This document shows positions 27,606 to 29,876 of a DNA stretch of 62,888 nt, one piece after another. Below the pieces are notes generated by a model. It did not search any database, had not been told where the DNA came from, and saw only the letters and a list, made by a program, of their open reading frames with translations. The position numbers and the translations under genes are program-made. Positions within the stretch are counted from its first letter, which is position 1. Every line of letters begins with the position of its first letter. The DNA comes from Gloeocapsa sp. DLM2.Bin57. Its GTDB lineage: Bacteria > Cyanobacteriota > Cyanobacteriia > Cyanobacteriales > Gloeocapsaceae. The stretch spans positions 1-62,888 of the forward strand of contig RECR01000062.1 in NCBI GenBank assembly GCA_007693955.1, given 5' to 3'.

Positions 27606-29876
27606 TTAAATTAAAGAAATTGTGAAATTTTGGATAATATTTAAAGGAACTTGGTTAAAATATTGTTGTTGAAATAATTCTTCGGTAAGTGTTTCTAGAA
27701 AAGAATCAAGATATTTTTGGGGAATTAGGGTAGATTGTTGATGGCTGGTAATCTGCAATCCTTCCTCAGAATAAGTAATAATATATCCTAAATGAGATAG
27801 GGTTTCTAAACCTAGTTTTAAGGTGCGATCGCTTATTTGTAGTTTAGTTTGTATTTGTTGATAAGTAACGCTTTTTCCTGTACGATGTAAATATTTAGCG
27901 ATACCAATTAGTTGATACCAAATATCTATAGCTTGGGTTTGAGTCGGTTGATGGTATGCTAGAGCCAGTTGTTGTCCTTTTTCTTTTGCTTCTTGATAGG
28001 ATTGGGTAATATCAGACCAATAACTAGGACATTGATTAAGGGTTAGGATGTCAGATTGTTGTGGTTGCTGGGGTTGATTACGCCAATCTAATAAACCTAG
28101 ATCATTGTTTAATTGATAATAGTTGTTTTCTCCTGTGGGTTGCCAATCGATTAGTCTCACTTCATATTGACTAATATTATAACTATAGTCTAATTCTACC
28201 ACCAAATCACAGTAAGTATCTGTAGGTAATTCGTGGCTAGAATGTCCCCACCAAACTCCTGGAAATTTATTCTGAGTTGATTTATCTTGAATAAAGAAAG
28301 TTGTTTTCTGATAGCGAATATTTTGGCTACCACAATCTTTAATATTACTGGTTTTAATTTCGGTAAATATACATTTTTTTAGTAGTAATTTAGGTGGGTG
28401 ATTACCTATACCAAAAGGCTCTAATAATTTTAACTCTTTAAACAGATTTCTTCCTAACTCTTTGACGGTAATTACTAAATCTATGGCTAAAGTAGGATCT
28501 TTAAAGTTATCTATTTTCCTTCTAGCTACTTGATTGATTGCTGCAGTAAATAGGTCAATATTAGCTACTGGTAAGGTTAAACTGACAGCAGAGGTATCTC
28601 CACTAAAACCAGTTAACAACTTGATTTGAGATTTAATTAACTCGTCTAAATCTAGGTTATTAAGGGTACTTCCTAAACCTCTAGCTATTTCTTGCTCTAT
28701 ACTTAATAAGATAGTAGGGCGATTATATTCTCTAGCAATAGTATTAACTATTAAAGCCAAGACTCCTACTTCCCAACGACTATCAGCTAAGACTATTACA
28801 CTAGTTGTAGATAAGTCGATAAAGACTAGTTTAGCTTTAATTTGTGAGAGGGTATTTTTCTCTAATTCTTTACGTCTAGCGTTAGCTAATTCAACCTCAT
28901 GGGCTAATTTTTGACATTTTTTGCTGTCTTTTTCTGTTAATAATTGCACTAATAAATTACTATCATGGTAAATACGACTGACAGCGTTAATACGTGCACC
29001 AATACCATAACTAATATCCGTAGGGCGATCGCCACTTTGTTGGCATTTTTGTAATAAATAATATAATCCTAGACGTGTAGCGGTTTTTGGGTTATTTTGT
29101 TTTGGTAACTGTTGTAAACCTTTTTGGGCTAAATAGCGACAATCTCCCTTTAATTCTACCTGATCACAGATTAAGCCAATACCTACTAAGTCCAATAAGC
29201 TTTCAGGTGGTGAAGTTTGTTGACAAGTTAAATAAAACCCTTCGAGGAGTTTATAAGCTATTGCTACTGCTGAAAGGTGATAGAGAGGGTGAGTCTCAAT
29301 AAAATAACGAGGGTTAAGTATAGAGACTACCTCGGGACGATCTTCGGGTGGGGTATGATGATCTATAATAATTAAATCTATACCTAATTCTTGAGCGTAG
29401 TTAATCTCAGTTAGATTAGTACTCCCAATCCCACAGGTAATGATTACTTTGACTTCCTGTTTCGCTAGTTTAGTTATTCCTGATTTATTCAATCCGTGGA
29501 ATGCTTCTAAGCGACTCGGGAGATAATAATCTAGATAATCACCCCAAAATTTCCCTAATCCTGAGTAGAGTAAAATAGTCGCCATGACTCCATCAGGGTT
29601 AAAATCTCCCCAAATGGTGACTTTTTCTGAACAGGCGATCGCTTGTTGCAATCTATTAATAGCTAATTTTATCTCTTGTCCAAAAGCATTAGGGGGAGTG
29701 GGTTGATATTTGTCTGGTGAGAGAAAACTAACCGCGGTTTCAGGGGTTATTCCTCGTTGTTGTAACAATTTAGCCGCAAATATTCCCTCAGATTCGGGTA
29801 AATATGTTTTGACTAACTCTCTTAACTCTCTAGAAGTTGTAGAAGGTTGTGACAATTCCCAGACAAATTTACTCAT
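27606..29876 (-). CDS. recJ: RecJ-like DHH-family protein with altered metal-binding motifs
   Basis: 756 residues: DHH domain (about 70-225), DHHA1 domain (about 350-450), an OB-like region, and a C-terminal extension with a predicted helix-turn-helix (TLKLGLETLSHLGYIITYS, about 685-705). RecJ proteins are 5'-3' single-strand exonucleases. Motif III is intact (IDHH at 171-174), as is the later Asp (ICDQVEL, D238). Motif I reads GDFNPDG (Asn93 where the DxD pair needs Asp) and motif II reads TCGIGSTNL (Gly149 where relatives have Asp). Two of the usual Mn ligands are thus missing, so nuclease activity is doubtful. The rest is well preserved with no stop codons, arguing for a functional non-nuclease or altered-metal protein. 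Confidence 0.85.
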   Translation of the reverse strand: MSKFVWELSQPSTTSRELRELVKTYLPESEGIFAAKLLQQRGITPETAVSFLSPDKYQPTPPNAFGQEIKLAINRLQQAIACSEKVTIWGDFNPDGVMATILLYSGLGKFWGDYLDYYLPSRLEAFHGLNKSGITKLAKQEVKVIITCGIGSTNLTEINYAQELGIDLIIIDHHTPPEDRPEVVSILNPRYFIETHPLYHLSAVAIAYKLLEGFYLTCQQTSPPESLLDLVGIGLICDQVELKGDCRYLAQKGLQQLPKQNNPKTATRLGLYYLLQKCQQSGDRPTDISYGIGARINAVSRIYHDSNLLVQLLTEKDSKKCQKLAHEVELANARRKELEKNTLSQIKAKLVFIDLSTTSVIVLADSRWEVGVLALIVNTIAREYNRPTILLSIEQEIARGLGSTLNNLDLDELIKSQIKLLTGFSGDTSAVSLTLPVANIDLFTAAINQVARRKIDNFKDPTLAIDLVITVKELGRNLFKELKLLEPFGIGNHPPKLLLKKCIFTEIKTSNIKDCGSQNIRYQKTTFFIQDKSTQNKFPGVWWGHSSHELPTDTYCDLVVELDYSYNISQYEVRLIDWQPTGENNYYQLNNDLGLLDWRNQPQQPQQSDILTLNQCPSYWSDITQSYQEAKEKGQQLALAYHQPTQTQAIDIWYQLIGIAKYLHRTGKSVTYQQIQTKLQISDRTLKLGLETLSHLGYIITYSEEGLQITSHQQSTLIPQKYLDSFLETLTEELFQQQYFNQVPLNIIQNFTISLI

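Follow-up and report, generated by a model that had tools for sequence, protein, structure and literature searches.

How a cyanobacterium comes to keep a full-length RecJ gene whose product lacks residues expected to bind the catalytic metals is the question raised by one locus in the window analyzed here, a 62,888-nucleotide contig (RECR01000062.1) of Gloeocapsa sp. DLM2.Bin57. A first-pass annotation, made from the DNA letters alone, had pointed to the gene and likened its product to Cdc45. The frame (27606 to 29876, reverse strand) translates to 756 amino acids with zero internal stops, and its product is predicted to be nuclease-dead. Pfam matches to DHH and RecJ_OB were both above cut-off, HTH_11 matched below threshold, and TIGR00644 matched with an E value of 5.9e-118, narrowly missing the curated NCBIfam cut-off for the recJ equivalog (394.5 versus 396.9 bits). 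In the tree, the gene groups with two orthologues from the same genus (L036 and L007) among about 100 orthologues in Cyanobacteriia. The open frame, domain matches, and orthologues together point to RecJcy, the second RecJ paralogue of cyanobacteria, which we identified with the recJcy/recJcya of the literature (PMC5101192 and PMC10653904). In a survey of 291 genomes, RecJcy was widespread among Cyanobacteriia and absent from the picocyanobacterial family f25.

The window genome encodes five DHH-domain loci, and a second RecJ with complete motifs, which the first-pass annotation had proposed looking for, was found as a separate canonical RecJ of 652 amino acids in which GDYDADG, TVDNGIS, ITDHHD, and GGH are all complete. 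A single-protein search of the genome contigs gave no match. In the window, recJcy is flanked on one side by genes for an M1 aminopeptidase and a TPR protein, and its neighbors on the opposite side encode a sodium:solute symporter and a LysE-type transporter; none of these is conserved beside recJcy in other genomes. Aside from a PD-(D/E)XK gene described below, the only conserved neighbors of recJcy were an ORF that is apparently antisense and genes confined to particular lineages.

Two metal-binding aspartates had been reported missing from this protein, and both the codons and the alignment bear this out. About 90 intact orthologues carry GDFDADG, TCDTGS, and GGH, along with DHH and D238, versus GDFNPDG, TCGIGS, and SGD in the window copy. 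(The first-pass annotation had given TCDTGS correctly for cyanobacterial relatives; like GDFDADG, it occurs in nearly all intact orthologues.) Motif I is degenerate, reading DFNPD (D93N and A94P; residues 91 to 95; 29592 to 29606, reverse strand), with N93 encoded by AAC at 29598 to 29600, and in motif II GI replaces DT (D149G and T150I; 29427 to 29432, reverse strand), with G149 encoded by GGG at 29430 to 29432. When aligned to characterized RecJ from S. aureus and D. radiodurans, N93 falls opposite the second Asp of DxD and G149 opposite the motif II Asp, and no adjacent acidic residue in GDFNPDGV or ITCGIGST offers a substitute. Motif III is retained as originally described (D172-H173-H174; 29355 to 29363, reverse strand), preceded immediately by T171I, and D91 and the motif IV Asp238 (29163 to 29165, reverse strand) are also present. 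Further changes extend beyond those first noticed: the DHHA1 motif has SGD replacing GGH (residues 425 to 427; 28596 to 28604, reverse strand), and 29 of 109 core positions defined as near-invariant from 92 intact orthologues (27%) are altered. Lacking both complete metal ligands in motifs I to IV and the DHHA1 GGH of an active DHH/RecJ exonuclease, the window protein is most likely incapable of the two-metal DHH nuclease reaction. Because D91, DHH, and D238 are retained, a weak or altered metal site could give residual activity.

The OB domain (about residues 466 to 580; 28137 to 28481, reverse strand; Pfam RecJ_OB) kept its near-invariant positions (0 of 8 changed, and 0 of 10 for the OB and C-terminal parts combined), and 20 of 20 conserved C-terminal positions were also kept. 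Sequencing error at 29598 to 29600 and 29430 to 29432 was ruled out, since errors at two codons cannot explain the loss of GGH and changes spread over 29 core positions in an open frame. Also ruled out was a loss common to the whole genus: L036 (70% identity) and L007 (57%) keep all ligands, and the active-site loss therefore happened on the window branch. The closest relative, L036 (genome G291), carries R403C, G42R, and a divergent extreme C terminus along with its full set of metal ligands, which suggests either partial relaxation or an assembly error.

Selection on recJcy was estimated with a purpose-written codon model, with canonical RecJ and the PD-(D/E)XK protein as controls. On the window branch, the whole gene had an omega of 0.24, a value that is approximate at such divergence, and omega = 1 was rejected (likelihood ratio statistic of 17.6 with free branch lengths). 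For partitions, branch lengths were fixed from the whole gene, as free-length domain-by-domain values were unstable. Near-invariant core positions had an omega of 0.32 on the window branch versus 0.002 in the background. The other core positions had an omega of 0.24, versus the 0.40 to 0.47 predicted if the core had been neutral over the same fraction of the branch (p of 5e-5 or less), and the C-terminal part had an omega of 0.095. Omega = 1 was rejected for the gene as a whole and also for these remaining core sites and the OB and C-terminal regions. The frame contains 0 stops, compared to about 13 expected under neutrality for that fraction of the branch and about 43 under neutrality throughout. 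Canonical RecJ on the same branch had an omega of 0.08. The claim that the gene is preserved rather than simply decaying thus holds up, and recJcy in the window, a copy known from one genome, does not look like decay but appears to be still maintained by purifying selection despite the loss of its active site.

A gene inactivated recently could, however, be turning into a pseudogene, its open frame merely reflecting recency. The 27% of near-invariant core positions altered, the relaxation and divergent C terminus of the sister copy L036, and the outright loss of RecJcy in g33, g193, G051, and picocyanobacteria are all consistent with such a path. Against it stand the zero stops and the rejection of omega = 1 for the whole gene, the other core positions, and the OB and C-terminal regions, and dead copies elsewhere persist across genera (omega of 0.06 to 0.17) and in genomes of 1.4 to 1.5 Mb. 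We consider ongoing pseudogene formation unlikely.

These other dead copies show that the window is not a single case. The RecJcy active site was also lost in three other lineages, which we call Geminocystis-type (family f9), UCYN-A-type, and Alkalinema-type. In f9, whose named members are Geminocystis sp. GBBB08 and a related metagenome-assembled genome (MAG), D93 was replaced and GGH lost in 5 of 5 g32 and 2 of 2 g25 genomes (L109 to L112, L115, L120, and L121), while the nuclease was intact in g13 and RecJcy was missing from g33. Two genomes of 1.44 and 1.49 Mb (G492 and G501) contain nifH and no photosystem reaction-centre gene, and we infer from this size and gene content that they are of the UCYN-A type, a nitrogen-fixing endosymbiont. 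Their RecJcy (L271 and L274) is a frame of about 790 codons in which all ligands are lost (GKEGLNS, TCGIKD, and GRN replacing DHH), and their canonical RecJ is intact. In the Alkalinema-type MAGs, RecJcy has D93A and keeps the remaining ligands. A RecJcy in the g116 MAG (L113, genome G300) is degenerate with an internal TAA and is possibly a true pseudogene.

Dead RecJcy copies require 4 changes on the tree, with which taxonomy is concordant, and on this basis one common origin of all of them is unlikely. The number may be five, since the canonical RecJ tree joins g25 to the intact g13, not to the dead g32, within f9. Omega was 0.06 to 0.17 among dead f9 copies versus 0.11 to 0.15 in intact pairs. 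UCYN-A-type copies had an omega of 0.099 and Alkalinema-type copies one of 0.25, and omega = 1 was rejected for the dead copies of all three lineages. Residue losses, their recurrence, and the purifying selection that accompanies them can all be read in the sequences themselves. Losses in dead lineages were concentrated in DHH and DHHA1, and several positions changed in every one of these lineages, often alike. T171 became I or V, S401 was replaced by a bulky residue (hydrophobic or aromatic), and A431 became V, I, F, or L; A94, P294, and G432 changed as well. The reverse pattern, an intact nuclease with an eroded C-terminal domain, was found in f9 g13 and in L073, so the two halves of RecJcy can be lost separately. 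Independent losses, each with purifying selection retained, make a non-catalytic role for RecJcy very likely.

The same comparisons bear on whether dead copies are dead at all. Nuclease activity might be kept through a re-arranged metal site built from DHH, D91, D238, or other acidic residues, as the window copy still has several of the ligand positions and the g32 copies retain DHH and the motif II Asp. Such a site is very unlikely, given that the expected ligands D93 and D149 disappeared together with GGH, leaving no acidic neighbor to replace them, and that UCYN-A-type copies are still constrained without any ligand at all.

The best candidate for the non-catalytic role is partnership with a putative RecB-type PD-(D/E)XK protein. 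This protein of about 265 amino acids, assigned to the PD-(D/E)XK superfamily (PDDEXK_1), is encoded beside recJcy in many Nostocaceae. Genes for it lie, for example, at 619 to 1422 in L020, 4004 to 4804 in L021, and 964 to 1722 in L307. It has no NCBIfam model, and PADLOC gave just a weak Cas4-like match. The gene lies within 2.2 kb of recJcy in 35 genomes, upstream on the same strand in 34 of them. Among the 291 genomes surveyed, with Cyanobacteriia tallied by hand, the partner was present in 98 of 98 RecJcy-positive Cyanobacteriia (including G175, whose RecJ is diverged and uncertain in type) and in 1 of 40 RecJcy-negative Cyanobacteriia, the exception being G201, which had no RecJcy match; as the genomes are related, these figures amount to about four or five effective events rather than 138. 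Both genes were lost together, independently, in g33, g193, G051, and picocyanobacteria, with a 44-amino-acid remnant of the partner in G051.

In the window genome, the partner gene is present on contig C114, unlinked to recJcy. It was also present in the f9 genomes with dead RecJcy that were searched and in both UCYN-A-type genomes, whereas the Alkalinema-type recJcy loci had no partner gene within their 4-kb flanks. Its D, DxK, and QxxxY residues were invariant, including in the dead-RecJcy genomes checked, and its omega was 0.08 to 0.19. Co-occurrence of the pair, gene order, and the intact partner site are thus evident from the genomes; contact between the two proteins is what we infer.

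We take Synechocystis sll1354 and the S. elongatus recJ paralogue to be RecJcy/recJcya, sll1354 presumably belonging to this clade. By tree and alignment, the window protein shares with this family the DHH-DHHA1-OB arrangement and a C-terminal HTH-like domain, usually alongside a canonical RecJ. It differs in that the window copy and the three other lineages lack catalytic residues, whereas the published family is treated as an exonuclease. In S. elongatus RB-TnSeq, loss of recJcy, cas4, uvrD, or the PD-(D/E)XK gene Synpcc7942_0992 each favored RSF1010 plasmids, and the same paper states that natural transformation benefits from each loss too (PMC10653904). Synpcc7942_0992 is a candidate orthologue of the partner. 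In Synechocystis, transformation is two orders of magnitude higher when recJ (sll1354) is lost (PMC10667661, citing Kufryk 2002). The genetics in these two papers (PMC10653904 and PMC10667661) thus mark RecJcy as a barrier against natural transformation and foreign plasmids.

Structural models were consistent with this family placement. AlphaFold modeled the window protein with a mean pLDDT of 91.4 in the RecJ DHH-DHHA1-OB layout, and the Geminocystis-type protein had the same layout (mean pLDDT of 88.9); because the alignments behind both models included intact homologues that steered the predictions, the models are not independent proof that dead copies fold. The C-terminal region (residues 581 to 756; 27609 to 28136, reverse strand) contains a winged-helix-like unit (helices 649 to 666, 672 to 679, and 683 to 695; strands 698 to 703 and 706 to 712) followed by two more helices. 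An HTH-like tail had been predicted at this end and is present; it is not new here, being ancestral to RecJcy. Compared to canonical RecJ of T. thermophilus, D. radiodurans, and S. aureus, the protein shares DHH, DHHA1, and the OB fold, but lacks the equivalents of D93 and D149 as well as GGH, and its C-terminal domain has no confident structural match.

The proposed parallel with Cdc45 could mean that dead RecJcy is a replication factor that belongs constitutively to the replication machinery. Both proteins have a RecJ-type DHH-DHHA1 fold without catalysis, and dead RecJcy is kept in reduced UCYN-A-type genomes. However, the best structural match to the window model was bacterial RecJ (5f55; Z of 34.6), with RecJ entries scoring about 29 to 35 and Cdc45 entries about 13 to 17 over the DHH-DHHA1 core only. 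Cdc45 carries a CMG-interaction domain, for MCM/GINS contact, inserted between DHH and DHHA1, whereas RecJ-type helices make this connection in the window model. Overall similarity to Cdc45 is low, several free-living lineages do without RecJcy, and the product of the linked gene belongs to a nuclease family rather than to the replication proteins. The phenotypes of relatives in the two genetic studies concern transformation and plasmids (PMC10653904 and PMC10667661). Because the nearest fold is bacterial RecJ, the genetics concern incoming DNA, and the neighbor is a PD-(D/E)XK protein, a replication role is unsupported and highly improbable. What stands of the Cdc45 parallel is the loss of catalysis from a RecJ fold, now in several independent cases.

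We therefore favor, with a probability of about 0.6, an explanation in which RecJcy has two separable roles and in which the window and three other lineages dropped the nuclease while keeping a selected non-catalytic role with the PD-(D/E)XK partner. The first role would be that of a 5'-3' single-stranded DNA exonuclease. The second would require the folded core and the OB and C-terminal domains, and would have been retained as the window, Geminocystis-type, UCYN-A-type, and Alkalinema-type lineages independently gave up the first; canonical RecJ is intact in the dead-RecJcy lineages where checked. Most likely, this second role is the binding of single-stranded DNA together with the loading, positioning, or regulation of the RecB-family nuclease, presumably by physical contact, the functional pair handling incoming or aberrant single-stranded DNA. 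RecC-type subunits, in which a dead nuclease-fold protein is kept beside an active PD-(D/E)XK nuclease in a two-protein nuclease, are analogous, but they have a different fold, and the RecJcy pairing is predicted from genes. RecJcy itself is already known; a literature search covering mainly freely accessible papers found no report of dead RecJcy or of its pairing with a PD-(D/E)XK protein.

More tentatively, RecJcy and its partner might constitute an undescribed two-component DNA-processing system of cyanobacteria, one whose RecJ subunit was repeatedly reduced to a non-catalytic yet required component, even in a UCYN-A-type endosymbiont. The transition from RecJ to Cdc45 would then have a counterpart in bacteria that arose more than once. 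That the catalytic site was lost four times independently while the protein stayed is a natural experiment separating two functions of a repair nuclease, and suggests that a bacterial RecJ has a job beyond cutting DNA. The PD-(D/E)XK protein encoded next to recJcy provides a specific candidate for its partner and is relevant to the improved transformation of recJ mutants in model cyanobacteria, and the family offers a setting in which to ask how RecJ-fold proteins, like Cdc45, turn non-catalytic.
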